Origin: Oscillospiraceae bacterium
GTDB taxonomy: Bacteria; Bacillota_A; Clostridia; Oscillospirales; Ruminococcaceae
DNA length: 28,170 bases
Assembly: GCA_900766795.1 (NCBI GenBank)
Contig: CAAFWX010000266.1
Span: 1 to 28,170, forward strand
Direction of reading: 5' to 3'
Part shown: positions 2,732 to 28,170 of the stretch, piece by piece
Numbering within the stretch: position 1 is the stretch's first letter
Layout: every line of letters begins with the position of its first letter
The notes under the pieces: model-generated
Seen by the model: the letters and a program-made list of their open reading frames with translations, nothing else
What the model was told of the DNA's origin: nothing
Database searches by the model: none
Program-made: the position numbers and the translations under genes

Positions 2732-2747
2732 AGTCTTACTTCCTTAC

Positions 2748-5263: not shown

Positions 5264-5271
5264 CGATTACC

Positions 5272-8473: not shown

Positions 8474-8515
8474 ATTTCCTTCTCAAATTATACCGCCGGC
8501 GATTCCCCAAAGAGA

Positions 8516-9214: not shown

Positions 9215-9312
9215 TTTGGTGAAATCCTCCTGCTAACAAAAATGGAATATTCTCCCCTAACAATTAAAGAGGAGAACAAAGTGAAAACATTCTATATACC
9301 AAACAATAAGAA
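9215..9312. other. rfbB-wbqC intergenic segment with small hairpin
   Basis: On the minus strand TTCTCCTC pairs with GGGGAGAA (one G-T pair) around an 11-base loop near 9258-9284, followed by ATATTCCATTTTTG. It could be a weak attenuator ahead of wbqC. I see no strong promoter in this segment. Confidence 0.3.
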
Positions 9313-9512
9313 AGTAATACCGTGCAATTCCCGGTTACCTACCCCTGTCATCCGCTTGCTTCGTTTTCATTCTTCATTGCTTCGCATAAATATTACTTAT
9401 TGTACAAACCAAAATCAGAACATCCCGCCTGCGCTCACAAGTGTTCAGCTGGAGCATGAATTGCACAACATAACGTAAAATCAAGTTGTGCAATTCAGAA
9501 AAGCGTATTACT
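9313..9512. repeat. Degenerate MITE-like copy E inside the glycan operon
   Basis: The segment is bounded by AGTAATAC (9313-9320) and GTATTACT (9505-9512) in inverted orientation. After the left end it reads CGTGCAATTCCCGGTTA, a decayed form of the CGCACAATTACCGGCTA found in better copies. It also contains CCGCTTGCTT, shared with copies A, C and D. An internal perfect 13-bp hairpin, TGAATTGCACAAC with GTTGTGCAATTCA (9457-9469 with 9485-9497), would form in the operon transcript. Confidence 0.5.
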
Positions 9513-9616
9513 GACACGCCCCGCGGCAAGCAATCGTTCGACAAAAAATATGAGGTATTATCTTAAGTGACACAAACTGAAGATTCGTTGTTTTCAAACA
9601 AATCCGTATGATTATA

Positions 9617-10636: not shown

Positions 10637-11511
10637 TTTCTTCCCTCTGCAAGTGAAATAATATATTTTCCGTACTCTGTCATTTTAAGTTCTTCACCAA
10701 GAGCCCGGAACTGTTCTGTCGAAATAAGATTTCTGCGCCATGCAATTTCTTCGATACAAGAGATATAAAATCCCTGCATTTTCTGAACCGTCTTGACAAA
10801 ATCTCCTGCTTTATGCATAGCATCCGGAGAACCGGTGTCCAACCATGCCATACCTCTGCCCATAACGGTTACATTCAGAAGCCCTCTTTCAAGATAATAG
10901 TTATTGACAGAGGTGATTTCTATCTCACCGCGCGCAGACGGCTTAACGTTTTTGGCTACATCAACAACTGAATTATCATAGAAATACAAACCCGGTACAG
11001 CAAAATTGCTTTTTGGGTTTTTGGGTTTTTCTTCTATGGACACCACCTTATTGCAATTATCAAATTCTACAACGCCAAATTCGCAGGCATTTTTGACGAG
11101 ATAACCGAATACAGTCGCTCCACCATTTTCTATCTGATGCTTTGCATTTTCGAGCAGATGCGAAAGATTCTGACCATAAAAAACATTATCGCCAAGCACC
11201 AAGCAGACGCTGTCGTCTCCTATGAATTGCTCACCGACAATAAAAGCATCTGCCAACCCTCTAGGTTTATCCTGTATCGCATAGCTGATTTTTATACCAA
11301 TGCGTGAACCATCGCCCAGAAGTTTTTTGTATTGGTCATTATCCTCAGGAGTAGTAATAACAAGCACCTCGGTAATTCCCGCCAGCATCAGCACTGATAA
11401 CGGATAATATATTAGGGGTTTATCGTAAATCGGGAGAAGCTGTTTGCTTACTGATATGGTGTTTGGGTAAAGTCGAGTACCACGCCCTCCAGCAAGAATG
11501 ATTCCTTTCAT
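10633..11511 (-). CDS. rfbA: Glucose-1-phosphate thymidylyltransferase
   Basis: Joins dTTP and glucose-1-phosphate to give dTDP-glucose, the entry step of the pathway. I choose the start at 11511 so that the protein begins [16 protein letters not shown], the conserved RmlA N-terminus (292 residues, normal length); a longer reading from 11544 adds 11 residues without support. Other signatures are [38 protein letters not shown] and [21 protein letters not shown] lies upstream at a longer than usual distance from this start. It is the first gene of the operon and is preceded by an unusually long leader. Confidence 0.96.
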
Positions 11512-12120
11512 AATTTTTGACAATTCCTTTCCGCTGCGCTGCAAGGCACAAAAGTTATTGAAACAACTGTCGTTTCAAGCGCAGCAATACAAAAAATGAT
11601 AAAATAAGCTTGAGGAAACAGGCACAATACAGAGCATGTGAAGGTACTGGGAACAGCAATGAACCGGATTAAATTATATGTGCCGGACGCTCTTTCAAGC
11701 ACAAATGAATAGAGCGAGAACCCTGTAACCTTATCTTTGGAGAAACAGACTGCTGCAATCTTTCAGGGTGTAACTGCCTCTCTGAGCAGACGATTTTCAA
11801 CCTTTACCGGATAGCATTTGTTGGGTTGTTCCAATCTTTCTCTCTAACTTCCTTTTGAATTGTCCCGCGAAAGCCATACGACGAATTTCAGCATATCCAT
11901 AATGCAGAAAAACACCATTAAAACATCAAGTTAAGGCAATACCGTACAATTAACAGCTTGTCCTTTTATTGTCCGCTTGCTTACACATTTTCTGCCATAT
12001 CGCATGAATTATCCTTGTCGGACGCCAACCCTCCTGAGTTAAAATAATCCAACCGAGCGAAAAAAATCTGACTGCGCAAATGAGCGGAAATAATTATGCA
12101 GTATAACTCCAATATAACTA
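11512..12120 (-). promoter_or_regulatory. Long untranslated leader of the glycan operon
   Basis: About 600 bases separate the consensus promoter at 12127-12155 from rfbA, without a convincing gene. The leader contains degenerate MITE copy D (11935-12110) and, near rfbA, a perfect 7-bp hairpin TTGAAAC/GTTTCAA (11558-11578) read on the minus strand just before TAACTTTT. A second TATAAT on the minus strand (11673-11678) lacks a good -35 box. A 16-codon open frame beginning MLKFVVWLSRD lies near 11900-11850 but has no clear ribosome site. I match no known riboswitch. Confidence 0.4.
11935..12110. repeat. Degenerate MITE-like copy D
   Basis: The left end reads GGCAATACCGTACAATTA, preceded by TTAA, and is followed by GTCCGCTTGCTT and ATTTTCTGCC, both shared with the better copies. 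The right end AATTATGCAGTATAACTCC is a decayed inverted copy of the left. It sits immediately downstream of the operon promoter, so it is transcribed as part of the leader. Confidence 0.55.
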
Positions 12121-12626: not shown

Positions 12627-15600
12627 TCACTTATTTGTCGTTTTGTCCTTCGCAGTAGCTTCGCCGCCGATAAGCCCTTCAAAATCCGTGCCGGGCATGG
12701 GGCGGAAGAAGAAATAGCCTTGTATCAGGTCGCAGCCAAGACCGCGCAGGAAGTCAACCTGCTCCTGCCTTTCAACGCCCTCGGACACGGTTTCGAGGTT
12801 GAGGCTCTTCGCCAGCGTCACCACCGAGGAGATTACCTTTCGGTTGCGCTCGCTAAGCTCGTTTTTGAGGAAGAAGCCGCCGTCGATTTTCAGCGTGTCA
12901 AAGGGAAGCTGCGTAATCAGATTCAGCGAGGAATATCCGCTTCCGAAGTCGTCAATCGAAATGCGGAAGCCTGTGGATTTAAGCACAGTCATGGTTTCCA
13001 CCAGCTTTGACATATTCTCGGTCAGCAGGCTTTCGGTGATTTCCAGCTCGATAAGCTCATGCGGCACGTCCAGCGCGTCAACAAGATTGCTGAGCTTCTG
13101 CGGGAAGGTTTCGTCCTTCAGATGGTGACGGCTGACGTTCAGCGAAATCAGCGGAATGTCATAGCCCTTTCGCATCCAGCGCTTGATGTCCGCGATTACA
13201 TGGCGGTATATTGCAAAATCCATGTCCGCAATAAATCCGTTTGACTCAAATATCGGAACAAACTTGCCGGGGGAGATGGTTTCGCCGCCGGGTCTTATCC
13301 AGCGCACCAGCGCTTCCGCGCCCATGATTTTTCTTGTTTTTATGCTCACCTTGGGCTGGTAGAAAACCTTGAACTCATCGTTGTCGAGCGCTTCAAGCAT
13401 GTGCGACTCGATAAAGCGGCGGTTCTTCAGCTCCTCTTTAAGCGAGGTGTCGTACCGCGCGATGAGGTTTTCCTGATAGTAGGTCTTGTCCTTGACGGTC
13501 TTTTGCGCGGTGATGGCGCGGTCAAGGGCTGTCATGATTCCTACGCCGTCCTCGCCCATCTCATACACGCCCGCAATGAGGTAAATCTGCTTTCCGAATT
13601 TGCCGTAGACCTGCTTTTGAATGCTTGCCAGAAGCTGCGTCAGGCGCACCTCCAGCTCTGAATAGCTGCGGTTTTTGAAAAGCGCCACGAAGCGCGAGCC
13701 CTCGCTTCGTCCGATAAGCTCGCCCGCACCGATTGAGCGCTCGAGAATGTCCGCAACGGAGATAAGCACCGAGTTTCCGAACTCGTATCCGCTGTCCTCG
13801 TTTATGCGGCGGAAGCCCGCCACGTTAATCACAGCCGCGTGATACTCCTGACAATTTACGGACGTCAGGCGCATTGCTTCCGCGGTGAACATGTCGAAGG
13901 TCATAACGCCTGTCAGGATATCGTGATTTTTTATCTTGCCAAGGCAGTTTGTGATATCCGTCGAGCACACAAGATAGCGCCTTTCGCCAAGCTCGTTTTC
14001 CTCCACCGAGGCGGTGAGGTCGAGCCATGTGTGCTGCGTTTCATTATACATCGCGCAGGTTTCTGTCAGCTTTCCGCCCTTGTCAAGCAGTACCGCGGGA
14101 CAATCGCGGCAGGGCTTGTTTCTTCCGTGAAGCTTCTTATAGCAGACGTCGCCGCTCTTAAGCCCGTAGTGCGCAAATGCGTTGCTGCCGACATGCTCCA
14201 CCACAAAGGTGCCCGGCTCAATGACAAAGGCTTCAATGTGAAGGTTTCCGAGGGCAGATTCAACCATCTTCATGCGCTTTGCGTCGCGCTCATCCTGCTC
14301 CCTCGCGGAGTTCATCTTGTTGAGCGCTTTTGAAAGCAGCTCGATTATGCGCGCGTCGGAATCCGTCGGCTCAAGCTTCTTTTCCGAAGCAACACAGAAC
14401 CAGCCCACCGGCTGCTCCGCGCCCATGATGGAGCGCAGCAGCGCACAGGAAGCGTTCCCGCAAAGCAGGAATCCGCCGCTGCTTCCGCCGTTGCTGTCAG
14501 CGTCAAGAATAATGCTGTCGGTTTTGAGCGCCGTGCGCAGCGCTCCCCCCGCAAGCTCGGAAACCACACAGGGCTTGTCGATAAGAGTGCTGTCGGGGAT
14601 AGTGTAGGTTTCGTAGGACGGCACGCCGTTTGAGTCAAGCATGGCAATGGAAATATAGTCCGCGCCAAGCACCTTTCCCGCTTCGCACAGCGCCTGCGTC
14701 ATGATGGGGATTCGTCTTTCCTTGTCGATGAACGCGTGCGTAACAAGGTCGTATACCGCCGCCATTCCCGCGGGCATTGTGCCGCTGTCGCCGAACATCG
14801 CGCGGCGGCTGACCACATGCACCGAGCCTGTGTCGATGGAGGAAGAATAGTGCACGATATGACCCGCGCCTTTATTGAGGGCAGCCTTAAGGGCAGCGTG
14901 CGACTCGACGATAACGGACTCGTATTTCTTCGCGTTTTTGAACACGGCAATACCCGCGCTGAGAGTAACCCAAACGCCGTTCAGAAACGGATAATTCTTT
15001 ACGCTGCTGCAAATCTGCTCCGCCTTTTCGCGCAGCGCATGGAGATTTTGAAAGCAGATGAACAGCGCAAACTCGCCGTCGCCCATTCTTCCGACAGCGC
15101 TGTCGTGCTCGCTGTTGGCAATGCCTATGAGAATGCCTCCCACGGTTTTTCTTATGTATTGACCGTATTCCTCGCCGTATTGCTCGTCAATCTTTCCCAG
15201 CCCGTCAATCGCAAAGGAGATTATCGCGCTGCTTCTGAAATAGTACTGACCCGTGGTTCTGAGGCTGACCGTTTCCGCAAAGGCGCTCGCGGTGAGCGCT
15301 CCCGTCAGCAGGTCGTGGCGGCTGTCGCTGCCGTTTTCGATGCCGCCCTTTTCCTCGGTGACATCAAGTGTTCTTCCGACAACGCGCACGGGTCTGCCGT
15401 CGTCGTCGCAGATGGTCTTTCCCTCATATCTGAACCACACGATTTCCGAAGCGTCGTTTATGCAGCGCATGTCATAGCGAATCTCTTTGTCGCCGCGCTC
15501 CAGCGCGTCGCAGAATTTGTTGAACTCAGGGATATCCTCGGTGTAGACGGTGCCCCAGCTTATGATTGTGTCACGGAAGTGCACGATAGGCTCCAGATGT

Positions 15601-15812
15601 TCCTCATACCGTCCGCTGAGCTTCTTGTACTGATAGCACACGTCCTCCGCAATGTCGTATTCCCACAATGCGAAGTTGGAGTATTCCGATGAAATTCTGA
15701 CCTTAAGCTCCTCGGCGCGCACCGAAATCTTAAGGCTGTTTATCTCCTGCTGCGCGTCGGAAAGCTGTTTTTTCAGTTGTTGAAGTTCGTGCCGGGCATC
15801 TGTATCAATCAT
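12627..15812 (-). CDS. Cytosolic PAS-GGDEF-GAF-PAS-GGDEF-EAL c-di-GMP phosphodiesterase
   Basis: The start at 15812 is chosen because GGAGGG lies 7-8 bases upstream; a Met 12 codons earlier lacks a good site. The 1061-residue protein has an N-terminal coiled coil (about 5-40), PAS (45-155), GGDEF (165-325), GAF-like (355-500), a second PAS with a Cys-rich loop CYKKLHGRNKPCRDC (557-571), GGDEF (630-790) and EAL (805-1055). Both GGDEF motifs are degenerate (GDGEF at 244-248, EGSRF at 704-708), so synthesis of c-di-GMP is unlikely. The EAL domain keeps EALVRW (833-838), NVSR, ELEITES, DDFGSGYSS, KID and SEGVE, so hydrolysis to pGpG is expected. No signal peptide or membrane span is seen. The PAS, GAF and Cys motif suggest control by small ligands or redox state. 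Confidence 0.92.
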   Translation of the reverse strand: MIDTDARHELQQLKKQLSDAQQEINSLKISVRAEELKVRISSEYSNFALWEYDIAEDVCYQYKKLSGRYEEHLEPIVHFRDTIISWGTVYTEDIPEFNKFCDALERGDKEIRYDMRCINDASEIVWFRYEGKTICDDDGRPVRVVGRTLDVTEEKGGIENGSDSRHDLLTGALTASAFAETVSLRTTGQYYFRSSAIISFAIDGLGKIDEQYGEEYGQYIRKTVGGILIGIANSEHDSAVGRMGDGEFALFICFQNLHALREKAEQICSSVKNYPFLNGVWVTLSAGIAVFKNAKKYESVIVESHAALKAALNKGAGHIVHYSSSIDTGSVHVVSRRAMFGDSGTMPAGMAAVYDLVTHAFIDKERRIPIMTQALCEAGKVLGADYISIAMLDSNGVPSYETYTIPDSTLIDKPCVVSELAGGALRTALKTDSIILDADSNGGSSGGFLLCGNASCALLRSIMGAEQPVGWFCVASEKKLEPTDSDARIIELLSKALNKMNSAREQDERDAKRMKMVESALGNLHIEAFVIEPGTFVVEHVGSNAFAHYGLKSGDVCYKKLHGRNKPCRDCPAVLLDKGGKLTETCAMYNETQHTWLDLTASVEENELGERRYLVCSTDITNCLGKIKNHDILTGVMTFDMFTAEAMRLTSVNCQEYHAAVINVAGFRRINEDSGYEFGNSVLISVADILERSIGAGELIGRSEGSRFVALFKNRSYSELEVRLTQLLASIQKQVYGKFGKQIYLIAGVYEMGEDGVGIMTALDRAITAQKTVKDKTYYQENLIARYDTSLKEELKNRRFIESHMLEALDNDEFKVFYQPKVSIKTRKIMGAEALVRWIRPGGETISPGKFVPIFESNGFIADMDFAIYRHVIADIKRWMRKGYDIPLISLNVSRHHLKDETFPQKLSNLVDALDVPHELIELEITESLLTENMSKLVETMTVLKSTGFRISIDDFGSGYSSLNLITQLPFDTLKIDGGFFLKNELSERNRKVISSVVTLAKSLNLETVSEGVERQEQVDFLRGLGCDLIQGYFFFRPMPGTDFEGLIGGEATAKDKTTNK

Positions 15813-15888
15813 TCTCTGCCCCTCCGTTTCTATGATGAACTCCCCCATGCCAAGGAAGCACAGTAATACATTTTATTACACTATCTCC

Positions 15889-16003: not shown

Positions 16004-16786
16004 TTATTCCGAGAGGAAGTCTGCGGCGAAATCCAGCGCCTGCGCCAGAGCCTGCTCGGACTCCGCCATTCTGTGGCCGCAGCCGCGAATCATAAGGCTT
16101 TTCACCGCGGGGTTTAGCTCCAGAAAACGCTCGGTGTCGGCGCGGCGCACAAGCTCGTCGTTTTCGGCATAAACCACGGCGACAGGAACGCTTTCGAGCG
16201 CGGGAAAGGCTCTGACGGCGCTCAGCCCCGCGAACATGTCGTATGCGGCAACAGGCACGCGAAACTCCTCGCCCGTGCGCACGCGGAAAAAGCCGCTGCT
16301 TCTTGCCTCCTCGAGAATGAGCGCATTCTGCTCGTCACGCCCGCCCTGCGGGTTATCCTGCGAAGCCCTTGCACACGACAGCAGAGAATCCGCCATATTG
16401 ACAGCGGGAACGCGCAGCGCAATGCGCCTGAACGGCGTCTTCCCCGAAAGGGTATCAAGCAGGGTGACGTAACCGCCGAAGCTGGTTGCGAACACCGAAA
16501 TGTCATCGGAAACGTTCTGAGAAAGCCACCCTGACGCTGCCGCCATATCCGCGAAGCAGTTCTCTGCGGTGAGAGAAGAAAAGCTGCATTTTCGCTCGCC
16601 GTGACAGCGCCAGTCGATTGCAAGCACCGCAAAATCCCTGTCGCACAGCCGCTGCGCCAGCAGCTTTATTGCGCGGCTCTCCTTGCTTCCGCCGAAGCCG
16701 TGCAGCGCAAGCAGCGCACGCTCAGCACGTCCGCCCTCATAAAGCTTTGCGGGGATTTCCCCGATTGTGAAATAACGTTCGTTCAT
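16004..16786 (-). CDS. Alpha/beta-hydrolase (serine hydrolase)
   Basis: A 260-residue cytosolic hydrolase. I use the ATG at 16786 because GGAGG stands 6 bases before it; the longer reading from 16834 starts within a hairpin region. Features are the oxyanion-loop motif LALHGFGGSKES, DWRCHGE, the nucleophile elbow ATSFGG (Ser), the acidic residue in VVYAENDELV, and the catalytic His in IRGCGHRM. This resembles small esterase/acylpeptidase-like enzymes; the substrate is not predictable. It lies between two c-di-GMP genes but is separated from them by a terminator on one side and a promoter on the other, so a shared role is not supported. Confidence 0.82.
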   Translation of the reverse strand: MNERYFTIGEIPAKLYEGGRAERALLALHGFGGSKESRAIKLLAQRLCDRDFAVLAIDWRCHGERKCSFSSLTAENCFADMAAASGWLSQNVSDDISVFATSFGGYVTLLDTLSGKTPFRRIALRVPAVNMADSLLSCARASQDNPQGGRDEQNALILEEARSSGFFRVRTGEEFRVPVAAYDMFAGLSAVRAFPALESVPVAVVYAENDELVRRADTERFLELNPAVKSLMIRGCGHRMAESEQALAQALDFAADFLSE

Positions 16787-16804
16787 ATGCTCCTCCGATT
16801 TCAC

Positions 16805-16828
16805 GCGGCTGCGCCGCAAGTTTTTTTT
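16805..16828 (+). terminator. Small hairpin with T run on the plus strand
   Basis: GCGGC-tgc-GCCGC is followed after AAG by eight T residues. No plus-strand gene precedes it, so it would stop antisense transcripts, or it is incidental. Confidence 0.3.
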
Positions 16829-16830
16829 CC

Positions 16831-16862
16831 GCAAAAAGAAAGCGGGCGAACTGTGCCGCCCG
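16831..16862 (-). terminator. Terminator of the twin-SBP EAL gene
   Basis: On the minus strand CGGGCG pairs with CGCCCG (16843-16848 with 16857-16862) around an 8-base loop, followed by CTTTCTTTTT. It lies 50 bases after the stop of the gene ending at 16913 and before the hydrolase start. Confidence 0.65.
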
Positions 16863-16912: not shown

Positions 16913-19879
16913 TCAGCCATTGCCTGCGGGAACAGACTTGTTGTTCTTATCCTGCTGGGCAAGCTCAAGATCCTTGAACCACATTTTCTCGAAAGCGTCC
17001 ATGGGCATGGGCTTTGCGAAATAGTAGCCCTGAACCATGTGGCAGTTGATGTCGGCGAGGAAGTCAACCTGCTCGATAGTTTCAACGCCCTCGGAGATTA
17101 CCTCCATGTTGAGGTTCTTTGCAAGCCCGACAACGGTTTCGATAACCGCTCTGCCCTTTTCGGAGTTTACCGTGCCGTTGAAGAACTCGCGGTCTATCTT
17201 GATTACGTCCGCGGGGATATCCTTTAGCATATTAAGCGACGAATACCCGCTTCCGAAGTCGTCAATCGAAAGCTTGAAGCCGATTTCGTGCAGCTTGCGC
17301 ATGATTGTCAGCAGGTGGTCCATGTTCTCGGCGAAAACGCTCTCGGTAAGCTCAAGCTCGATGTACTCATAGGGAATATCGTACTTATCCACGATTTCGC
17401 GCAGGCGCCAGATGTAGTCGTCGTTATTCAGGTGAAGCCTTGACTGGTTCACCGAGATGGTTACGGGAACCTTTCCCTCGTCAAGCCAGCGGCGCATTGC
17501 CTTGCAGACTTCCTCGAGAATGTAGAAATCAAGTTCCACAACAAAGCCGTTCTTTTCGCTTAAGGGAATGAACTGGTCGGGGTAAACAAAGCCGAAGTCC
17601 TTGCTGTTCCAGCGTATGAGCGCCTCCGCGCCCTCTATTCGGCGGGACTTCAGCCCGTATTTCGGCTGAAGATAGCAGATGAACTCGTGCTGCTTAAGCG
17701 CAAGCGGCATTACACTTTCAAAGTCCTTCTCGCGCAGCGCCTTTTCGCGAATCTTTCCGTCATAGAAAGCGATGGAACTTTGGTGGGAACCCTTTTGGGT
17801 CTTTTTGGCGATGGTTGCGCGGTCGAGAGCCGCGTTGAAGTCCACCGTGCCGTTAGCCTCAACGCACTGTTCCAGACGGCAGACGCCGGCGCTGAACAGC
17901 ACGGAGTATTTCACGAACAGCGAATTTCTTCTGGCGAACTCGTCGAAAATCATGTTCGCCCTTGCGGTAATTTCGTTGTCGGAGGCGTTGTGAATGGTGA
18001 GCGCAAAGTTGTCGTCGGAAATTCGCGCGAAAACCTCGTCGCTTTCGACGTTGTCGCTTACGGTTTTGTAAAGGCGCTCCAGCATTCGGTTGCCCTCGTC
18101 ATAGCCGAGGCGGTCGTTTACATATTTGAACTTGTTGATGTCGAACAGCAGAATAGCCCACTTTTCGGGCGAGGATTTTCTCACAGCCTTTGCGGAATCC
18201 TCTAGGAACTTCTGCTTGGTGCGCCCTCCCGTGAGAGCGTCCACCTCGGTGGTCTTTTTCTTGCTTCTCTTAAGGAAAACAATGATGATGGCAACCTCAA
18301 TCAGAACAAACACCGCCACTGCGATTATAACTGCAAGATACTTGTCAATAAAGCGGCTGAGCGTCATGGAGTCATAGCCCTGCGAGGTCATGGAGGAAAA
18401 GGCGCGAACATCAGAATCAACAGTGCTCATTCTCGCAAGAGTTTTTCCGAGAATGGAAGCAAGCTCCGAATTGTCCGCGGACAGCGCAAAGCACTCGTTA
18501 TGGTAGGCGCTGAGCGGCGTGATTATTGAGAACTCGTCGTACCCGCCGTTCATCATATAGATAACCTCGTATGCGCTCGCGCACACAACGTCAGCCTCTC
18601 CTGCGGCAACCGCGTCCATGCTTGCCTTAACGTCCGTATAGGGCAGGAGCGTTGCGGTGGGGTATAGCTCCTTAATGTATTTGGCAATGTCGCTGCCGTA
18701 GTAGGGAACGGCAATTTTGCTGTGGTCCTTGACGGAAGCGCTTCCGCTTCCCGCAATGACGGTGGGGTTCTTGGTGACGGGGATTGTCACCAGAAGGTTG
18801 TTGTATCCCGAAACGCTGCTGGTGTTTATGCCGCCGCAGACTGCGTCAACGGTGCCGTCCTCCAGAAGCTTCATACATTCGTTGAGCGTGGAGCAGGGCG
18901 TTATCGAAATAATCAGCCCCGTTTTCTCCTGAATATCATCAATCATGTCGCCCATCACGCCCGTGACGCGCTTCTTGCTCTTGTCATAGGAGCTTAGCAT
19001 GTCGCTTTCCTGATTGTAGGCAATGCGCAGTCCGACTTTCTTTTGGATATATGCCTTCTCGGCAGATGATAATGCAAACATCTGCATACCGAAGCAGGAG
19101 ATGTATTTCTCGTACAAATCAGAGGTGAAGTAGGGGTTGGTGATGGTGACGCTTCCCGTTGCCACGGACAGCTGGCTTCTGAGCTTTGTGTCGGTGTCGG
19201 TGGTCAGGAAATAGCAGTCGCTGAGTCCGAACTGATACACGATGGATTCGCCGCCCCACGGACGGAAGCATTCCTTCACAACAGCGTCCAGCTTGCCCGA
19301 GAAGAAGTCGCTTTTCATCTGCTCCTCGGTGTTGTAGCGGATGAAGTTTGCGTCCTCAAGTTCGGTGAAAACGAATAAGCCCTCGGAGAAGTATTTCATC
19401 TCGTCCTCGGCAAGATAGCCTATGCGCGAGCTTTTGAGCGCGTCGATATCGTAAAACGCGATGTCCGAGCCGCTCTCGGGAACATACACCGCAGAATACT
19501 TTTTCATGAGGGTGTAGTCGGTGAGCGAAGCGCCCATCGAGCTATCGCCGAAAGTGCTGCGGAAAAGCTCCGCGTCTGCCTCGCTTACGCAGGGGATAAT
19601 GTCAAGCTTACCCTCGGCAAGCATCGTCATCAGCTCGTCGCTGGTGCCGTCAACAAAGGTATACCTGTGACCGGTATACTTCGCAATCTGCTCAAGGTAC
19701 TCATACGCAATGCCGCTGTACTCCGTGCCGTTTTTGTTTATGCCGAAATCAGGCGAAGCGCCCACCAGCACGATTTCTCCCTTTTCCGCCGCAAAAGCGC
19801 CAAACGGCAAAGCCGCCGCAAACAACACAGCCGCAGCGAAAAGGGCAGTTATTTTTTTATATAATGATTTGCTGAACAT
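16913..19879 (-). CDS. Membrane receptor with twin solute-binding domains, degenerate GGDEF and intact EAL
   Basis: A 988-residue protein with a signal peptide (cleavage likely near AFA-AEK, residue 30), two periplasmic-type solute-binding domains of the amino-acid-binding SBP_bac_3 class (about 33-270 and 281-500), one membrane span (515-537), GGDEF (545-705) and EAL (717-970). The GGDEF motif is replaced by SDDNF (621-625). The EAL domain keeps EALIRW (752-757), NQSR, ELELTES, DDFGSGYSS, KID and SEGVE, so it should degrade c-di-GMP. The outer domains would bind an extracellular amino acid or similar solute and pass the signal through one helix. GGGAAGGG precedes the start. It is a single-gene unit with its own promoter and terminator. 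Confidence 0.92.
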   Translation of the reverse strand: MFSKSLYKKITALFAAAVLFAAALPFGAFAAEKGEIVLVGASPDFGINKNGTEYSGIAYEYLEQIAKYTGHRYTFVDGTSDELMTMLAEGKLDIIPCVSEADAELFRSTFGDSSMGASLTDYTLMKKYSAVYVPESGSDIAFYDIDALKSSRIGYLAEDEMKYFSEGLFVFTELEDANFIRYNTEEQMKSDFFSGKLDAVVKECFRPWGGESIVYQFGLSDCYFLTTDTDTKLRSQLSVATGSVTITNPYFTSDLYEKYISCFGMQMFALSSAEKAYIQKKVGLRIAYNQESDMLSSYDKSKKRVTGVMGDMIDDIQEKTGLIISITPCSTLNECMKLLEDGTVDAVCGGINTSSVSGYNNLLVTIPVTKNPTVIAGSGSASVKDHSKIAVPYYGSDIAKYIKELYPTATLLPYTDVKASMDAVAAGEADVVCASAYEVIYMMNGGYDEFSIITPLSAYHNECFALSADNSELASILGKTLARMSTVDSDVRAFSSMTSQGYDSMTLSRFIDKYLAVIIAVAVFVLIEVAIIIVFLKRSKKKTTEVDALTGGRTKQKFLEDSAKAVRKSSPEKWAILLFDINKFKYVNDRLGYDEGNRMLERLYKTVSDNVESDEVFARISDDNFALTIHNASDNEITARANMIFDEFARRNSLFVKYSVLFSAGVCRLEQCVEANGTVDFNAALDRATIAKKTQKGSHQSSIAFYDGKIREKALREKDFESVMPLALKQHEFICYLQPKYGLKSRRIEGAEALIRWNSKDFGFVYPDQFIPLSEKNGFVVELDFYILEEVCKAMRRWLDEGKVPVTISVNQSRLHLNNDDYIWRLREIVDKYDIPYEYIELELTESVFAENMDHLLTIMRKLHEIGFKLSIDDFGSGYSSLNMLKDIPADVIKIDREFFNGTVNSEKGRAVIETVVGLAKNLNMEVISEGVETIEQVDFLADINCHMVQGYYFAKPMPMDAFEKMWFKDLELAQQDKNNKSVPAGNG

Positions 19880-19982: not shown

Positions 19983-20011
19983 ATTATAGCAGATTATGTA
20001 ACGAATTTCAA
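19983..20011 (-). promoter_or_regulatory. Promoter of the twin-SBP EAL gene
   Basis: Minus-strand TTGAAA (20006-20011), 17-base spacer and TATAAT (19983-19988): 11 of 12 consensus positions. It is about 100 bases upstream of the start codon. Confidence 0.75.
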
Positions 20012-20251: not shown

Positions 20252-20280
20252 TTGACACGGAAATGACTTTGTGGTAAAAT
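20252..20280 (+). promoter_or_regulatory. Promoter of the solitary cas7
   Basis: TTGACA (20252-20257), a 17-base spacer and TAAAAT (20275-20280): 11 of 12 consensus positions. It is 34 bases before the cas7 start codon, so cas7 has its own promoter and is not the leftover of a longer upstream operon. Confidence 0.78.
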
Positions 20281-20314
20281 ATATCCGCGCCACAATTTAG
20301 GGGGGAGGAAAACC

Positions 20315-21160
20315 ATGTCCGATTTGGAGAACAAAATAGATTTTGTGATGTTTGTGTCGGCAAGCGGCGCAAATCCTAACGGCGACCCGCTGAACGCAAA
20401 CCGTCCCAGAACAGACTGCGACGGCTTCGGAGAGATATCCGACGTGTGCATAAAAAGGAAAATCCGAAACCGAATGCAGAGCCTTGGAAATGCGATTTTC
20501 GTGCAGAGCGACGCGTTTTCCGACGACGGCGCAAAGTCGCTTAGGGAAAGAGCAGGGTGCCTGTCAAAAGTGAAAGACCCGCAGGAATTTGCGCGGCAGG
20601 CGTGCGAAAAATGGCTTGATGTAAGAAGCTTCGGTCAGGTATTCGCATTTGACAAAAAGGATTTCACCTGCCCCTCAGTCGGAGTGAGGGGACCTGTTTG
20701 CGTACACCGCGCGGTAAGCCTGCACCCCGTTGAGGTGGTTTCCATGCAGATAACCCGCTGCGCAAGCGGCGACGTAAGGTATGGTATGCGCAGCAGCGAC
20801 ACAATGGGCACAAAGCACTTTGTGAGGTTCGGGCTGTACGAGATAAAGGGTTCTGTGAACGTGCGGCTGGCGAAAAAGACAGGCTTTTCCGCCGAGGACG
20901 CGCAAATCCTCAAAGAGTGTCTGAGGACGCTTTTCGTAGACGACGCTTCCTCCGCAAGACCTGACGGCTCCATGGAGGTCGTTAAGCTGTTCTGGTTTGA
21001 GCACGGCTGCATGGACGGCAGCGTACCCTCCGCGCGGATTCACCGTGCGGTGCACGCAGCGCTCGCCGAGGGCGTTTCCCTGCCGAAATCGGCAGCGGAT
21101 TATGTATTCTCCTGCGATGAAATCGAGGGAGTTTCTCTCGAAATCATTGACGGCATTTAG
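20315..21160 (+). CDS. cas7: Type I-C CRISPR Cas7 (Csd2) backbone protein, solitary
   Basis: A 281-residue, full-length Cas7 of the I-C/Csd2 type. In type I-C Cascade several copies coat the crRNA. Family signatures are GANPNGDPLNANRPRTD near the N-terminus, SDVCIKRKIRNRM, DVRSFGQVFAF, VRGPVCVHRAVSLHPVEV, SSDTMGTKHFVRFGLY, TGFSAEDAQILKECLRTLF and the late LFWFEHG. GGGGGAGG stands at ideal distance from the start. There is no cas3, cas5, cas8, cas4, cas1 or cas2 and no repeat array in the window; the gene has its own promoter and is followed by a hairpin. The reading frame is intact, which argues for selection and not decay. It may supply subunits to a remote system or have been recruited elsewhere. 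Confidence 0.93.
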   Translation: MSDLENKIDFVMFVSASGANPNGDPLNANRPRTDCDGFGEISDVCIKRKIRNRMQSLGNAIFVQSDAFSDDGAKSLRERAGCLSKVKDPQEFARQACEKWLDVRSFGQVFAFDKKDFTCPSVGVRGPVCVHRAVSLHPVEVVSMQITRCASGDVRYGMRSSDTMGTKHFVRFGLYEIKGSVNVRLAKKTGFSAEDAQILKECLRTLFVDDASSARPDGSMEVVKLFWFEHGCMDGSVPSARIHRAVHAALAEGVSLPKSAADYVFSCDEIEGVSLEIIDGI

Positions 21161-21180
21161 ACGCCCCCTATCAAAAAAAC

Positions 21181-21213
21181 AAGCCGCTCCCCTTTTTTTG
21201 GGGGGAGCGGCTT
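21181..21213 (-). terminator. Shared terminator between cas7 and the 90-residue gene
   Basis: A perfect 12-bp stem, AAGCCGCTCCCC with GGGGAGCGGCTT, closes a 9-base loop. On the minus strand it is followed by GTTTTTTTG, a strong T run ending the convergent small gene. On the plus strand the tail is only TCTGTG, so for cas7 it is weaker. Confidence 0.82.
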
Positions 21214-21222
21214 TCTGTGCGC

Positions 21223-21495
21223 CTACATATCCTGAAGGTCGGCGGCTGTGATGTCGTTTTCGAGATTATCCCTTGCAAGGTCGGTGTCGATTTCCTTGTA
21301 CACCGAGGCAATCGGTTTTTCCCCAGAATGCGGCTTTGCGTGATAGACCTTAAGCTCAGGGGACTCCGTTCCTGCTATGATGGGATTTGCGCGCTCGTTT
21401 GAAAGCTTTGCCCTGCCCTGAAGCTCGGGCACGGGAGCGACGTTGTTTTTGCTATGCGTGCGTATTTCGGGGCGCTTCATTCCTTTTTTCGACAT
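21223..21495 (-). CDS. Small conserved-looking protein of unknown function
   Basis: A 90-residue hydrophilic protein supported by a strong GAGGTGATG site directly before the ATG and by a terminator directly after the stop. The N-terminal half is basic and Pro-rich (MSKKGMKRPEIRTHSKNN, then PVPELQG); the C-terminus is acidic and ends LENDITAADLQDM. There is no signal peptide, membrane span or recognisable catalytic motif. Low complexity suggests it is partly disordered, perhaps an adaptor. I do not recognise a function. It converges on cas7 and is divergent from the SOD gene. Confidence 0.72.
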   Translation of the reverse strand: MSKKGMKRPEIRTHSKNNVAPVPELQGRAKLSNERANPIIAGTESPELKVYHAKPHSGEKPIASVYKEIDTDLARDNLENDITAADLQDM

Positions 21496-21602: not shown

Positions 21603-22055
21603 ATGCTAACACCAAATGCTTACGCCACGATAAGCGGCAGCGAGGACTATCCGAACATCAGCGGAACGGTGAAATTCTATCAGACCGACACGGGCACGCT
21701 CGTGTATGCTGCTGTGTACGGGCTTCCGGATTCCGACGCTCCGTGCAGCAAAAACGTGTACGGGTTTCATATCCACGAGGGAACAATGTGCGAGGGAGAT
21801 TCGCAAGACCCGTTCGCGAAAGCAATGTCGCACTACAACCCGCATGGCTGCCAGCACCCATATCACGCGGGCGACCTGCCGCCGCTTTTCGGAAACAAGG
21901 GAACGGCGCTTATGTCGTTTCTGACCGACAGATTCACCGTCGACGAGGTTATCGGAAAAGCCGTGATAATCCACGAGCGTCCCGACGACTTTTCAACGCA
22001 GCCCTCGGGAAACTCTGGCGCAAAAATCGCCTGCGGAATCATAAAGACAGACTAG
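21603..22055 (+). CDS. sodC: Cu/Zn superoxide dismutase-family protein, short cytosolic type
   Basis: The start at 21603 follows GGAGGGG and gives 150 residues; an upstream in-frame extension has no site. It would turn superoxide into hydrogen peroxide and oxygen. Expected metal ligands are present: His56 and His58 (GFHIHEG), His77 (SHYNPHG), His85, His88 and Asp91 (CQHPYHAGDLPP) and His124 (VIIHERPDDF). Cys63 and Cys144 can form the usual disulphide. The zinc loop is short, and the active-site Arg near the C-terminus is replaced by Lys141 (NSGAKIACG). There is no signal peptide, unlike most bacterial SodC proteins. A protective role during oxygen exposure of an anaerobe is likely; catalytic rate could be lower because of the Lys. 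Confidence 0.88.
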   Translation: MLTPNAYATISGSEDYPNISGTVKFYQTDTGTLVYAAVYGLPDSDAPCSKNVYGFHIHEGTMCEGDSQDPFAKAMSHYNPHGCQHPYHAGDLPPLFGNKGTALMSFLTDRFTVDEVIGKAVIIHERPDDFSTQPSGNSGAKIACGIIKTD

Positions 22056-22256: not shown

Positions 22257-22481
22257 GGCAACACCGCATAATTTTTATCGTTCAATTGCGCCGTCAGTTT
22301 TTTCGTCAGACTGTACAAATTGAGCGCAGGCGGACCGAGCTGTCGGTCCGCCCTGTCACTTCGTGACACCTCCACCAACAGAGGGAAACCATGCCCGTTG
22401 GGCAAAATTTGAGCGATACAACGGATAATTTGCAAGCAAGCGTGCGGCAAAGGCTTTAGCCGGTAATTGTGCGGTGTTGCC
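22257..22481. repeat. MITE-like copy A filling the flagellin leader
   Basis: Terminal inverted repeats GGCAACACCGCATAATT (22257-22273) and AATTGTGCGGTGTTGCC (22465-22481) match at 16 of 17 positions. TAA stands near both ends and may be the target duplication. Internally there are perfect hairpins GGCGGACCGA/TCGGTCCGCC (22329-22352) and TGTCAC/GTGACA (22354-22368), and GCCC-gtt-GGGC. There is no open frame for a transposase. The element lies wholly between promoter and ribosome site of the flagellin gene. Confidence 0.8.
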
Positions 22482-22513
22482 CTAAGATATTTTGCTGCAA
22501 AGGAGGGATAGGC

Positions 22514-25500
22514 TTGCGTATTCGGGATAACAGCAGGGCGCAGAGAATAAACAACAACACCGCAAAATCCACAAAGGCTCTTGCCGAAGCTACCAAGCGC
22601 CTATCCTCCGGTTACAGAATCAACAGCGCTGCCGACGACGCTGCGGGGCTTGCCGTGTCAGAGAAGCTGCGCTCTATTGACCGTGGTCTGAGGCAGGGTC
22701 TTAGGAATATCAACGACGGAATAAACTATACCTGCTCGGTTGACGGCGCTTCTCAGACTATCCACGATATGCTGCACCGCCTAAAGGAAATCGCCGTCGA
22801 GGCCGCAAACGACACCTACGATTCGGTGGACCGCGACGCTCTTGACCTCGAATATCAGCAGCTTGTCAAGGAAATAGGGCAAATAACCGACACCGCCGAT
22901 TTCAACGGACTCCCGCTTTTTGAAAAGCACCTTGAAGCCTACGGCATGGTTGAGGGGAACTATCCCCACAACAAAGCTGTAAAAATAGACGACACCAACT
23001 GCACTCTCAGGATAGGTTACACCATTGACGGGGAATCAAAGGAATACACCGTGAATATTCCTCATGGAAAATACGAGCCGAACGAGCTGCTCGACCTGAT
23101 TGACGACGACCTGTATTCGGGCGAGAAAAGCCTAATCATAGGCATGGACGAGAATCAACAATTCACCATGCAGTGCGAGGGCGGAAGGCTCGACTACATA
23201 GCGGGAAGCGGAGCGTCTTTGTTCTATGAAACAAAGACAGGCTCGTCTGTGGGCTATCTTCTCGGCGTCACCTACTTCAAATCCAACACCGCTAAGCTCA
23301 CCATCATTCCGGGAAAAAACGACGTGATGAATTTCCGCATCGGCAGTGATGATACGATGTATTCCGTTCAGCTTGACGCAGGCTCTTACACCCACAACGA
23401 GCTTATTGAGCACATGAACGTAAAGTTCGCGGCGGCTTCTCTGCCGCAGGAAGTGCTTGCCGTGCCGGACGTCAACGATGAAGGCTACAACATCATTGCG
23501 CTCTCCTGCAGCGAAACCATCACGGGTCTTGCGGGAAACTTCCTGCTTATTGACACCGACGCGCCCATTCACTCCCCGATTTACGATATCTGCATGTACA
23601 GCGTGCAGGACAACACCCCCGCCGAGGTAAACGGCGTTCGCTCAATCACCAACGACACGGTAATTGAGCGCGGCAGAAACGAATACTTCGTGCTGAACGT
23701 TTCCTGCTATGGCGACGACGGAAGCAAGACGACTTCCAAGGTTAAGGTGAATCTGCTGGACGACGGCGAAAACCGACGAGTTTATGCTTCCCCCGACGAC
23801 CTGCTTGCGCGGATAAACAGCCAGCTTGAAGCCGCTGATGTTCCGGTTGAGGCAAGCTTCAGCGGAAGCTGTCTTAAGCTTGCCACAACGCAGTTTGGCG
23901 GCAATTGCAGCCTTAGCATTGACAAGAGCGACGTGCCCAGCGACTACATGCTTTTTGATTTGTTTGACCGCGGCACGCTGAATAAGGTCACGCCATACCC
24001 TTCCAACTCCACCTATTCCGCTGCGTTTTTGCAGGGAAAAAAGAAGCTTGACTCCACCACGTTTATCACCGCGGACAACAACTGCCTGTCTTTCAACCTC
24101 GAAACGGACAACGGCAGCAAACGGCTTGATTTGACTATCGCCGAGGGGGATTATTCCTCGGCGTCTGCACTGGAGGCTGCGCTCACGGCTTCACTTACAA
24201 GCGCTTATCCCGACATGGCGGATAAGCTTAAGTTCATCGTGGGAAGCTCTGTCACGCTCGCCGCGAACGGTCTGAAAGGCTCGGAAATAGTTTCAATCAG
24301 CGCCGACTCTTCCTCAAGCGCCTATACCACGCTTATCGGCGGAACATCATACAGCAGCTCGCTCGAAAAGCAAAAGGGCTATTCCAAGACCTATGTAACA
24401 TACAGCGGGGGCGGCAGCGGCTCGTCCAACATCTCCTCCACAGCGGGAAAAACAAAGCCGCTTGTGACATATGAAACAGTTGCCCCCACCAAGGAAAGCC
24501 AGCGCGAGGGAAAAATTCTCACCTACACCAACATCAGCACCGCAAGCGCCGCCAAGGACGGAACCTCAAAGCCTGTTGACGACATCTCGCAGGGCGAGGT
24601 TGACGACATTCACTATGTCCACACTCCTGCTGAATTTACGCTCAAAAACGTGCTTTCGCAGTTCACCGCTGTCGGGAAATCGCTGGAAGCCACCGACCTT
24701 AGCTTTGCCATGACCAATAAGGACGGCGTTTCCTCAAATTACAGCGTAACCATACCCAAGGGAAGCACCGTTTCGCAGGCAATCTCTGCAATCCAAAAGG
24801 CTGTGGGATCGGCGGGAACGGTCAGCGCCAGCGGAAACGACCTTAAATTCGTATCGACAGACGTCGGAGAGAATGTCAAAATCTCCAACATTACGGGCAC
24901 GCTGTGCCGCTATGCCACAAAAGACAGCAACGCCGACAACCCTGCCGCTGTGACGGACCTTGACTCCAACCACTATGAGATTCCCGCAAAAACAACGCTC
25001 AACTACGCAGGAACGCATATTCCTTACACCATTGACGACAGCTGCGACAGGCTGATTGTAAACTGCTGCGGAAAGCAGTTCGACCTTACCCTTGAGCACA
25101 CCACCTACACCTCGCTTGCACAGCTGGCTTCCGAGATTACGAGCAAGCTCACTGCGGCAAACGGCGGGGTTCAGTTCGGGACCTGCTCCGCGCAGGGAAG
25201 CAAGCTTGTGTTCACCGCGCCGTCCAATGCGGCGGGAGAAATCACCATAAGCCCCGCCAGCACCTGTCGGATTGCGGACAAGAAAACCACCACCGACCCC
25301 GGTTCTTCCCCCTACTACAACCCAGCAACCGGCAACATAGAGGAGCCTGCCACGCTGACTTCTTCCAGCGTAGGCACACATCTGCCGCTTACGGTTGACA
25401 GCACCAACAACACCATCACGATGGACTACACCTCCCCGAGCGGCACCGAAAACCTCACCGTCACTATTCCCGACGGCACCTACGCCACGGGGAATGACCT

Positions 25501-27610
25501 TGCGGGCGCGATTAACTCCGCCATTGCGGCAGACCCCGCGCTCAGCGGAAAGATAAAGGCAAGCTTTTCCGCGTCGGGCAGCTCGAAAGGACTCACCTTT
25601 ACGACCGTGAACGGCGGCGACGGTTATAAGCTCAGCAATTTCGGCGGAACCTCAAAGCTTGACCGGACAAAAACGGTTGCCTCCTCTGCGGGCGGCACTG
25701 TTGATGAAGCGAACAATGTCGTGAACTTCCCCGCCTATATCCGAAACAGCTATTTCGGCGCGCTGTTTAACGGCGATGAGGTGACGGTGAATGCTCTGAA
25801 CAACAAGGCAAGCTTCAACATAAACGGCACAAACTACTCGTTCACTATCCCCGATGGGGTTTACAAGGGCGACAGCGGCAGAACGCAGTTTCTTGACATG
25901 CTGAACAACGCTCTCGCGGGCGCGGACGTTACCGTGAACTATTCGGGCGGCACGCTTACCATCACTACCAACAACGAGGGTGACGGCGCAAGCGTTGACC
26001 TCGGCGCTTCTAACACCTCTGTGTACTTTAAAAAGGCAAGCTCGGTGGCTTCGCCCAATGCTTCGCGCCGAAGCAGCACAATATGCAAAATCGTTGGCAA
26101 AAACAATGTTTCGAGCATTGAAATCGCCGACTACAACAACACCATGGAGTTTGACTGCACCGAAAACGGCGTCAACTTCAAGTTCACTGTGTCCATTCCC
26201 ACGGGCAGCTACACCGCTGACGCCCTCGCCGCTGCGTTGCAGACAAGCTTTGACAGCACGCTGCCCGGCTCGTTCAGGGTTTCGGTGGTGAACGGCGTGA
26301 ATATTCAGATTGAGGGCGCAAACATCTCGGGCGACAGAGCGTTCAGGAATTTCAGCGGCGGTCTGTTCAACAAGGTTTTCCAGAACCCGAGTTTCACACC
26401 GATTGACCATCACACCGCGAAAAAAGGCTCCTCAAAGGGCTCTGACGTGTCATATATCGTTGGCAGAAACACCATGGAGCCGATAAGCGAGGAAGAAATC
26501 GAGTCCGGAAAAAACGTCATCATCTATTCGCAGCTCAACGACGAGCTGATTTTCGACCTCACCTACCTTGACGAGCAGTACAAGGTGAGCCTGAAAATCC
26601 CTGCGGGAGAATACACCCCCGAGGAGATTGCAAGCGCTATCCAAACCGAGGGCAGAAAGGCAATCGGCGCACTGACAGATTCCGACGGAAACCACCTCCC
26701 CGCCGAATTTTTCTCCGCAACAATAGGACTTAACGCCATCGGCGCTTCCGAAAACAAAACCGCCTTTACCAGCAGCGACAAGCTGGTGCTCTCCATGAAA
26801 ACGCCCGATGACGGCTCTGTTCGTACTGCCTCCTCCATCATTGACGGCGTAAGGGGAAGCGCTGCGTACAGAGTGTTCTATGACACCTCGAAAACGCCGC
26901 AGCCCACGCGCGTTTTGGGCAAATCCGACCTGTCAAACGGAATCACCATCACCGCAGGCAAAAACGACACTCTCACGATATACTGCGACGACGAGCCGCA
27001 GACCGTTACTCTGGACGCAGGGTATTACAAGGATTGTCAGGCGGTGTGCGACGCGCTGAACAAGAAATACGAGGAAACGGGCAGCCTTATCCGCACGCTT
27101 GACCACAACGGCAGGCTGATGTTCTACACGGCGATGAACGGCGATTTCGTGCTGGACAGATACTCGGGCAGCGCTGCCAACGACCTGTTCTACGACGGCA
27201 CAGGCAGAGATGACGACACCGAAATCGGAATACACTTCGGCAGGCGCACAGACAGCTATATCATGTACAAGAAAACTCGTGTAGACGAGCGTCTGATGAG
27301 GATAAACACCACGGGCGTAACATCAATTGAACGTGCGCTCAAAGCGATAAACAGGCTGGACGACGCAAACACCTATCTCTCCGAATGGAGAGCGCTTTCG
27401 GGCGCAAACGAAAACCGCTCGCGCCACACCGCCGACCGCACAACAGTTTACATCGAAAACCTTGAAAATGCGGAATCGGGAATCAGGGACGCAGATATTC
27501 CAACCGAGGTAAACGCTCTTGCAAAGCAGCAGATTCTTCAGCAGGTGCAAAATGCAATTGCTGAGCGCGAAAAGGAAAACCGAAGTTCAATTCTGGATGT
27601 CCTCGCGTGA
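22514..27610 (+). CDS. fliC: Giant flagellin with a central beta-repeat region of about 1460 residues
   Basis: I start at the TTG at 22514 because AAGGAGGG lies 6-7 bases upstream; a GTG 15 codons earlier falls inside the MITE. The 1698-residue protein has a normal flagellin D0/D1 N-terminus (1-140: ALAEATKRLSSGYRINSAAD, DDAAGLAVSEKLR, NINDGI) and C-terminus (about 1605-1698: IENLENAESGIRDADI, KQQILQQVQNAI). Common flagellins are 270-550 residues. Between lie roughly eleven related modules of about 80-140 residues, each with a beta-rich unit of the type NxLxFxxxxxG..YxVTIPxGxYT followed by a helix such as ALAAALQTSF, then LxFTTxNxG; this resembles the Flagellin_IN motif. It would be exported by the flagellar apparatus and polymerise into, or cap, an outer-decorated filament. 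No other flagellar genes are near. Confidence 0.92.
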   Translation: MRIRDNSRAQRINNNTAKSTKALAEATKRLSSGYRINSAADDAAGLAVSEKLRSIDRGLRQGLRNINDGINYTCSVDGASQTIHDMLHRLKEIAVEAANDTYDSVDRDALDLEYQQLVKEIGQITDTADFNGLPLFEKHLEAYGMVEGNYPHNKAVKIDDTNCTLRIGYTIDGESKEYTVNIPHGKYEPNELLDLIDDDLYSGEKSLIIGMDENQQFTMQCEGGRLDYIAGSGASLFYETKTGSSVGYLLGVTYFKSNTAKLTIIPGKNDVMNFRIGSDDTMYSVQLDAGSYTHNELIEHMNVKFAAASLPQEVLAVPDVNDEGYNIIALSCSETITGLAGNFLLIDTDAPIHSPIYDICMYSVQDNTPAEVNGVRSITNDTVIERGRNEYFVLNVSCYGDDGSKTTSKVKVNLLDDGENRRVYASPDDLLARINSQLEAADVPVEASFSGSCLKLATTQFGGNCSLSIDKSDVPSDYMLFDLFDRGTLNKVTPYPSNSTYSAAFLQGKKKLDSTTFITADNNCLSFNLETDNGSKRLDLTIAEGDYSSASALEAALTASLTSAYPDMADKLKFIVGSSVTLAANGLKGSEIVSISADSSSSAYTTLIGGTSYSSSLEKQKGYSKTYVTYSGGGSGSSNISSTAGKTKPLVTYETVAPTKESQREGKILTYTNISTASAAKDGTSKPVDDISQGEVDDIHYVHTPAEFTLKNVLSQFTAVGKSLEATDLSFAMTNKDGVSSNYSVTIPKGSTVSQAISAIQKAVGSAGTVSASGNDLKFVSTDVGENVKISNITGTLCRYATKDSNADNPAAVTDLDSNHYEIPAKTTLNYAGTHIPYTIDDSCDRLIVNCCGKQFDLTLEHTTYTSLAQLASEITSKLTAANGGVQFGTCSAQGSKLVFTAPSNAAGEITISPASTCRIADKKTTTDPGSSPYYNPATGNIEEPATLTSSSVGTHLPLTVDSTNNTITMDYTSPSGTENLTVTIPDGTYATGNDLAGAINSAIAADPALSGKIKASFSASGSSKGLTFTTVNGGDGYKLSNFGGTSKLDRTKTVASSAGGTVDEANNVVNFPAYIRNSYFGALFNGDEVTVNALNNKASFNINGTNYSFTIPDGVYKGDSGRTQFLDMLNNALAGADVTVNYSGGTLTITTNNEGDGASVDLGASNTSVYFKKASSVASPNASRRSSTICKIVGKNNVSSIEIADYNNTMEFDCTENGVNFKFTVSIPTGSYTADALAAALQTSFDSTLPGSFRVSVVNGVNIQIEGANISGDRAFRNFSGGLFNKVFQNPSFTPIDHHTAKKGSSKGSDVSYIVGRNTMEPISEEEIESGKNVIIYSQLNDELIFDLTYLDEQYKVSLKIPAGEYTPEEIASAIQTEGRKAIGALTDSDGNHLPAEFFSATIGLNAIGASENKTAFTSSDKLVLSMKTPDDGSVRTASSIIDGVRGSAAYRVFYDTSKTPQPTRVLGKSDLSNGITITAGKNDTLTIYCDDEPQTVTLDAGYYKDCQAVCDALNKKYEETGSLIRTLDHNGRLMFYTAMNGDFVLDRYSGSAANDLFYDGTGRDDDTEIGIHFGRRTDSYIMYKKTRVDERLMRINTTGVTSIERALKAINRLDDANTYLSEWRALSGANENRSRHTADRTTVYIENLENAESGIRDADIPTEVNALAKQQILQQVQNAIAEREKENRSSILDVLA

Positions 27611-27888: not shown

Positions 27889-28067
27889 TTATTGCTTTAC
27901 GCCGTCGAAGTCGTAGTATTCCGAGCAAACATGAAACTCTTCGGATAGTGTTTGAACTTTTGGCGTTGCTAAAATGAACTTTAAGGAAAACAGAAAGCCG
28001 AATTTTTGCAAATTGTCGTTTTCGGCTCTTTACTATAATACAAAAAGCGCAGTGTGCCCACTTCTTA
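27889..28067. other. Non-coding stretch before the last MITE
   Basis: No gene is supported here. A 7-bp inverted repeat AGCCGAA/TTCGGCT near 27994-28026 with flanking A and T runs could be a weak terminator. Reading frames across it are short and lack ribosome sites. Confidence 0.3.
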
Positions 28068-28170
28068 GGCAACACCGCACAATTACCGGCTAACACCTTT
28101 GCCGCGCGCTTGCTTGCATATTTTCCGCCAGCAGTTTCCCGCTTGAATACGCTTCGCTTCCGCGGGAAAC
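28068..28170. repeat. MITE-like copy C, truncated by window edge
   Basis: Starts GGCAACACCGCACAATTACC and continues GGCTAACACCTTTGCCGCGC then GCTTGCTTGCATATTTTCCG. The first 60 bases closely match the reverse complement of the right end of copy A, so it is inserted in the opposite orientation. A hairpin CCCGC...GCGGG near the window end continues beyond it. Confidence 0.72.

Follow-up and report, generated by a model that had tools for sequence, protein, structure and literature searches.

A solitary, intact type I-C cas7 gene, tentatively read as a still-coding relic of a foreign CRISPR-Cas locus

The stretch of DNA analyzed here (the window) is a contig of 28,170 bases carrying a single type I-C cas7 gene, referred to below as the orphan, between GGDEF-EAL protein genes on one side and the genes for a conserved 90-aa protein and a superoxide dismutase (SOD) on the other (Table 1). 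The reading frame runs uninterrupted from ATG to TAG over 281 codons. The product scores 288.3 bits against TIGR02589, with a curated cut-off of 182.25 (6e-86, residues 7–268), and matches Pfam Cas_Cas7 (6e-74), PADLOC Cas7c (1.5e-86) and, by sequence, solved type I-C Cas7 chains (E 2e-34). A predicted structure reached a pLDDT of 87.2, with residues 150–161 poorly predicted. When this model was searched against the PDB, ranks 1–14 were all type I-C Cascade chains, with TM scores of 0.72–0.80 normalized to query length; the Cas7 chains among them, 7kha_B, 8g9s_B and 9jhb_C, were also matched by sequence. By these profile matches and this predicted fold, the orphan is a member of the Cas7c/Csd2 family. 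It is like the Cas7 proteins of 7kha_B and 8g9s_B in its full-length match, its fold and the principal family motifs, which are retained as judged by eye. It differs from them in standing alone, and in the alteration of several residues that are fixed in the compared firmicute Cas7c proteins. An earlier note on this DNA had described a full-length, intact Cas7, and three profile libraries, the fold and the open frame all agree with that description; the disrupted frame of a pseudogene is not found.

Table 1. Features around the solitary cas7 gene, in window coordinates
Feature	Position	Strand	Basis
GGDEF-EAL protein of conserved block (eal1)	12627..15848	-	profiles, synteny
Hydrolase-like (esterase/lipase) gene	16004..16834	-	NCBIfam below cut-off; PHROG esterase/lipase 1.3e-12; synteny
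SBP_bac_3-GGDEF-EAL protein (eal2)	16913..19879	-	profiles, synteny
Promoter-like TTGAAA-17-TATAAT for divergent EAL gene	19983..20011	-	scan
Candidate sigma-70-like promoter TTGACA-17-TAAAAT, extended -10	20252..20280	+	consensus match only
Shine-Dalgarno GGGGGGAGG	20300..20308	+	sequence; 6 bases upstream of ATG
Solitary type I-C cas7 (Cas7c/Csd2), 281 aa, intact	20315..21160	+	libraries, sequence match, model
Strong hairpin between convergent genes, T-tract facing minus strand	21181..21213	.	folding
Conserved 90-aa protein, convergent with cas7	21223..21495	-	homology, synteny
Cu/Zn superoxide dismutase (SOD)	21603..22055	+	profile match

The same note had credited the gene with its own promoter and an ideal ribosome site, and both descriptions hold up. 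The candidate promoter is near ideal, with TTGACA (20252–20257) and TAAAAT (20275–20280) agreeing with the consensus at 11 of 12 positions across a 17-nt spacer, and a strong Shine-Dalgarno sequence precedes the start codon. A scan of 2.7 kb returned five promoter-like sites, compared with 2.8 (sd 1.8) in shuffled sequence, so the putative cas7 promoter is credible because of its position and quality rather than the number of sites. The note's third signal, a hairpin downstream of cas7, proved real but was assigned to the less suitable gene. On the plus strand, the hairpin is strong (−28 kcal/mol, z −4.2) and is followed only by UUUCUG; on the minus strand (−27 kcal/mol, z −2.6), the hairpin leads into UUGUUUUUUU. 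Because of this run of U, the hairpin is better placed to serve the convergent 90-aa gene than cas7, and it is probably mainly the terminator of that gene. A simple terminator scan called it on neither strand.

Several of the flanking genes indicate that the host, a gut bacterium, is in or adjoining the Huintestinicola-like genus of genome G873. The 90-aa neighbor is 82% identical to a protein from a Huintestinicola metagenome-assembled genome. Relatives of the SBP-GGDEF-EAL protein that cover all or most of its length, at 46–59% identity, are encoded by 22 of the 43 genus genomes, and partial relatives by 9 more. The eal1–hydrolase–eal2 block is conserved across genus kin; the 90-aa gene is present in 24/43 genus genomes, and its pairing with SOD is kept in genome G1252 (L309). 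Neither junction of the orphan recurs in kin. Beside eal2, cas7, the 90-aa gene, SOD and flagellin are all missing in the 15 kin loci (14 with sequence on that side); another gene, amylase-like by reading of its translation, takes that place in all eight loci examined. Likewise, cas7 does not adjoin the 90-aa gene in any of the 11 best loci, of which 10 have sequence where it would lie. The orphan thus sits between two independently conserved blocks. Its GC3 of 0.645 lies within the range of the neighboring genes (0.615–0.698), suggesting that it did not arrive very recently from a genome of different composition.

Two junctions that are both unsupported by kin, eal2 to cas7 and cas7 to the 90-aa gene, are also what a chimeric metagenome contig would produce, by joining cas7 to the flanks of another organism. 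Such an assembly artifact is very improbable. The gene resembles its flanks in base composition and GC3, it has a promoter of its own, and there is no cas8 or cas4 remnant of the kind expected from a break inside an operon. Moreover, the constraint signal described below is intrinsic to the gene.

The solitude of cas7 was judged within the 28,170-base contig, and a remote type I-C locus in the same genome is possible. Within these 28 kb, tblastn detected no other cas genes. HMMs for cas3, cas5, cas8, cas4, cas1 and cas2, each built from 70–80 type I-C proteins and run with filters off, gave a best match outside cas7 at E = 2, which is noise, and revealed no cas8c or cas4 remnants at the ends of the orphan. 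The search for a CRISPR array turned up a single repeat within 120 bases, of 20 nt and in two copies that are 80% alike; matches in the contig to the end of the I-C repeat numbered 6, fewer than the 11.9 expected. Intergenic stretches around cas7 showed no similarity at E 0.01 to the loci fetched to that stage. The 28 kb are therefore without cas5c/cas8c, cas3/cas4/cas1/cas2 and an array, and the earlier claim of no other cas genes or repeats is borne out over this length.

Relatives of the orphan are found in cas operons. Among the best 80 of 113 relatives in genome contigs, cas8 adjoins cas7 in all 80. In the family of G873, 97 of 297 genomes have matches to cas7, and in its genus 22 of 43 do, at 28 places. 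A further 117 cas7 loci (77 + 40) were opened, covering every one of the 28 genus places together with 92 regions of the family list. Independence of the locus sets is incomplete, since some genomes contribute to more than one, many of the contigs are short, and one locus without cas7 (L108) was left out of the counts. Another cas gene lies nearby in 117/117 of these loci, and cas5 or cas8 lies within 4 kb in 115. One of the two exceptions, L349, has cas4, cas1 and cas2 on a contig that stops 58 bases past cas7. In the other, L198 (3255–4704, genome G1248), a cut cas3 runs into the last part of cas7 (HMM positions 212–279), forming a decayed I-C locus. A lone cas7 was found in none of the genomes searched (family, n = 297; genus, n = 43), and a literature search for one returned no paper. 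A solitary cas7 is thus rare, and the window holds its sole instance among the loci examined. In four operons (L238, L249, L250 and L365), cas7 is split in two, which shows that genes within operons do get broken.

The closest relative of the orphan, P0003, is 72% identical. In a 213-sequence Cas7 tree with its root at L063, the orphan (P0001) grouped with P0003 with support of 0.97, in a clade of 117 sequences that contains none of the 16 Cas7s of the genus and none of the 41 of the family. Tree distances from the orphan were 0.49 to P0003, 1.4–2.1 to the canonical Cas7s of the genus, and 2.6–3.9 to the Cas7s of array-less modules discussed below. Given that the I-C operons of the genus belong to another lineage, transfer of the orphan is suggested, and by its sequence relationships the gene probably came from a foreign I-C system.

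Searches for a mobile source led to loci holding other cas genes. Viral contigs contained no match to the orphan Cas7 in a close search and three in a profile search, each of them next to other cas genes. Phage records yielded four distant matches, of which the three opened all had other cas genes; 70 plasmid records matched, and both of those opened carry cas5-cas8-cas7. One plasmid locus, from Lysinibacillus (L325, 3418–6831), encodes cas5c-cas8c-cas7c with no other cas gene in an incomplete gene table covering 12.8 kb. PHROGs contains no phage family for cas7 or for the 90-aa gene; the SOD and EAL genes match PHROGs families that are also found in phages, and the EAL block sits in ordinary contigs in kin. 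The location on a phage or mobile element expected for an anti-CRISPR protein that is a Cas homolog is thus not seen for the orphan.

Evidence on how the orphan has been evolving came from the changes along its branch, which were assigned by comparison with the sister sequence and by column frequencies rather than by a codon model. Forty-five changes were assigned to the orphan branch and 21 to that of P0003. On the orphan branch, 22 of the 45 fall at columns that are at least 90% conserved, close to the 24.7 expected without constraint. The sister branch has 2 of 21 at such columns, and 38 other branches of length at least 0.12, some of them mutual sisters, have 150 of 971 when pooled (Fisher P = 3.7e-7 against the orphan). 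The orphan ranks first of the 39 branches for the share of changes at conserved columns (0.49; next 0.33), and an earlier count with 41 sequences gave similar values (23/46 vs 2/21). Columns that are invariant in 42/42 compared relatives and altered in the orphan include G28, D56, S149, Q184, N209 and S238. A mixture fit put the neutral share on the orphan branch at 0.71 (95% interval 0.36–1.0; full neutrality P = 0.13); the same fit to ten other branches showed weaker excesses in L067 and L063, with L033 borderline.

Some constraint nevertheless appears to have been kept. At columns at least 98% conserved, there were 11 changes compared with 18.3 expected, fewer than by chance (one-sided P = 0.018). 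The mean BLOSUM62 score of the orphan's changes, pooling those from before and after orphaning, was 0.20, compared with −0.45 for random mutation (P = 0.004) and 0.43 for other branches (P = 0.34). Several of the changed positions vary in distant, working I-C Cas7s, so the changes need not destroy the protein. Together, the lack of a stop codon and the conservative changes suggest that selection was weakened or redirected, not gone. Constraint of the Cas7 type thus appears to have been largely lifted on the orphan branch, and partly kept.

The earlier note had argued that decay usually leaves broken genes and not a tidy unit. As a sign that the gene must be in use, this argument is weak. Constraint on the gene is loosened, and the probability that no stop codon would have arisen is 0.19–0.54 for neutral changes anywhere within their inferred interval. 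If indels arise at 10% of the rate of point mutations and every one of them disables, the probability of an intact frame is at most 0.06, which favors the note's position. Open frame and promoter are weak evidence of use, and residue-level constraint is a stronger means of telling use from survival.

A type I-C operon elsewhere in the genome, possibly one without cas7, could draw its backbone in trans from the orphan as a spare or split subunit. The main Cas7 motifs are kept, the fold is predicted well in the model, and the view covers a contig beyond which lies the rest of the genome. However, conserved residues in a functional backbone would not be expected to change at about the rate of chance, and we consider this arrangement improbable. 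An I-C operon lacking cas7 did not appear among the loci, all of which were retrieved by way of cas7.

The explanation that we favor, tentatively and with close to even confidence, is that the gene is a relic of a foreign I-C locus, orphaned but still coding, and that the constraints of Cascade on it have been lifted. A complete cas7c from a type I-C locus of foreign lineage would have been stranded at the junction of two conserved chromosomal blocks, by a rearrangement that left it next to a promoter of its own. The gene probably continues to be transcribed and to yield a folded Cas7 protein. According to PMC7684278 (in excerpt), Cas5c together with one Cas7 clamps the crRNA handle and initiates assembly. 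Since the handle clamp needs Cas5c, a lone Cas7 is not expected to act as a guided complex; without an adjacent Cas5c, Cas8c or array, the orphan would form no crRNA-guided complex by itself and would presumably have no immune function. At most, it might bind RNA loosely or self-associate. Freed from Cascade contacts, it would gather changes at residues that its relatives keep, and it is most likely on its way out, with loss as the expected end. The cut cas3-cas7 end in G1248 indicates that decay exists nearby and favors reading the orphan as a relic. Features that count against this reading are the intact frame, the mild changes, the kept motifs, the near-ideal promoter and ribosome site, and the fit of GC3. 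The three roles that the note suggested, a spare subunit, a modulator of Cascade and a repurposed RNA-binding protein, are all possible.

Many of the same features would be expected if the orphan had been repurposed for a CRISPR-independent task, either RNA binding or the tuning or poisoning of a Cascade in the same cell via its backbone, with only Cascade-specific residues released. We regard repurposing as the main alternative, unlikely though far from negligible. It would account for the open frame, the mild changes, the partial sparing of the strongest columns and the gene's own promoter. It also has a precedent in AcrIB3, a Cas5 homolog that displaces Cas5 (PMC13131331, in excerpt). AcrIB3 is viral, however, and the absence of a PHROGs family for cas7, the other cas genes in the opened virus loci, and the lack of a lone gene in any other genome searched all argue against repurposing.

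Further support for repurposing comes from array-less modules that the genus keeps. Such mini modules occur in eight genus genomes, four with cas5, a short cas8 and cas7 (L182 9463–12098, L183 7539–9967, L184 4–2268 and L185 7451–10011) and four with cas5 and cas7 (L186 9002–10516, L187 5577–6915, L188 2491–3925 and L191 10112–11522). The fetched loci, of 6.9–19.9 kb, contain no cas3, cas4, cas1 or cas2; L184 begins partway through cas5, and both L186 and L187 stop inside cas7 or just beyond it. A repeat search found no array near five of the eight. The module Cas7s are 43–75% alike, and by eye flanking genes are common to L186 and L191, and to L182 and L183. The short Cas8 spans at most positions 29–445 of 600 in the HMM. 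The small subunit Cas11c is made from residues 489–612 of D. vulgaris Cas8c (PMC7684278, in excerpt), so the short Cas8 would be without the part that gives Cas11c. In five cas7 pairs and three cas5 pairs, dN/dS is 0.13–0.23, indicating purifying selection, with dS of 1.3–2.5 and near saturation. The modules are possibly CRISPR-independent, or a trans-guided form of Cascade.

The orphan and the modules have in common a change from KS to RC at positions 148–149. An ITKS motif is present in 118 of the 120 sequences in the set of orphan relatives, the orphan having ITRC and P0015 being without the motif; C149 is found in 7/7 and R148 in 6/7 module sequences. The columns changed in the orphan also overlap with those changed in modules (13/23 vs 34/131, P = 0.006). 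While these data are consistent with repurposing, R148 is also common in distant I-C Cas7s (13/19), overlap is likewise expected from a shared loss of constraint, and the orphan's own residue is found in a module at only 8 of the 23 changed columns, so the likeness is suggestive only. The orphan itself is not one of these modules, since the tree places it in a different clade and it has no cas5. Like them, it is a Cas7c without cas3, cas4, cas1 or cas2 in its locus; the modules, by contrast, retain cas5 and have a clade of their own, and some have flanking genes in common between species.

A broader proposal is that the genus has taken I-C backbone proteins out of immunity more than once, in the conserved modules and, in this species, in a lone Cas7 with its own promoter and altered residues around positions 148–149, as RNA-binding or gene-regulating proteins needing neither array nor nuclease. 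We consider this distinctly improbable. If repurposing were true, the lone Cas7 and the array-less modules would mark a path by which a CRISPR effector becomes an ordinary RNA-binding protein. If the orphan is instead a relic, as we favor, it would be a clear example of a Cascade subunit that has outlived its system.

Systems described previously resemble the orphan in part. The isolated or orphan cas loci of PMC5294841 likewise consist of cas genes away from an array, but the survey requires at least three cas genes, whereas the orphan is one. An incomplete I-C system with a Cas8-Cas5 fusion and no Cas3, a proposed DNA binder (PMC10910872, in part), is also a partial I-C system without a nuclease; it is a fusion from a CRISPR screen, in contrast to one cas7 alone. 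AcrIB3, the anti-CRISPR that mimics Cas5, is likewise a single Cas homolog that could enter Cascade. According to the excerpted account (PMC13131331), it is viral, a Cas5, and 38% identical to its model, whereas the orphan is a chromosomal-looking Cas7 with no mobile context.

Several other features of the window deserve mention. Beyond SOD lies a very long flagellin gene (22469–27610; 1,713 aa), with full-length relatives (49–53%) in 5 of 43 genus genomes and a 60-nt inverted repeat pair (92%) at its two ends. A dispersed repeat like AAGGCAACACCGCACAATTA occurs in direct and inverted copies at 11931, 12319, 12345, 22253, 22422–22484 and 28064–28127, and a 32-nt repeat pair (91%) brackets the segment from eal1 to SOD that contains cas7. 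Positions 1334–11544 are occupied by a low-GC (0.35–0.44) surface-sugar cluster with genes for rmlA, a GDP-mannose-dehydratase-like protein, WbqC, glycosyltransferases and a PseH-like protein (below cut-off). A Mutator transposase gene (127–1083) lies beside this cluster, 19 kb from cas7.
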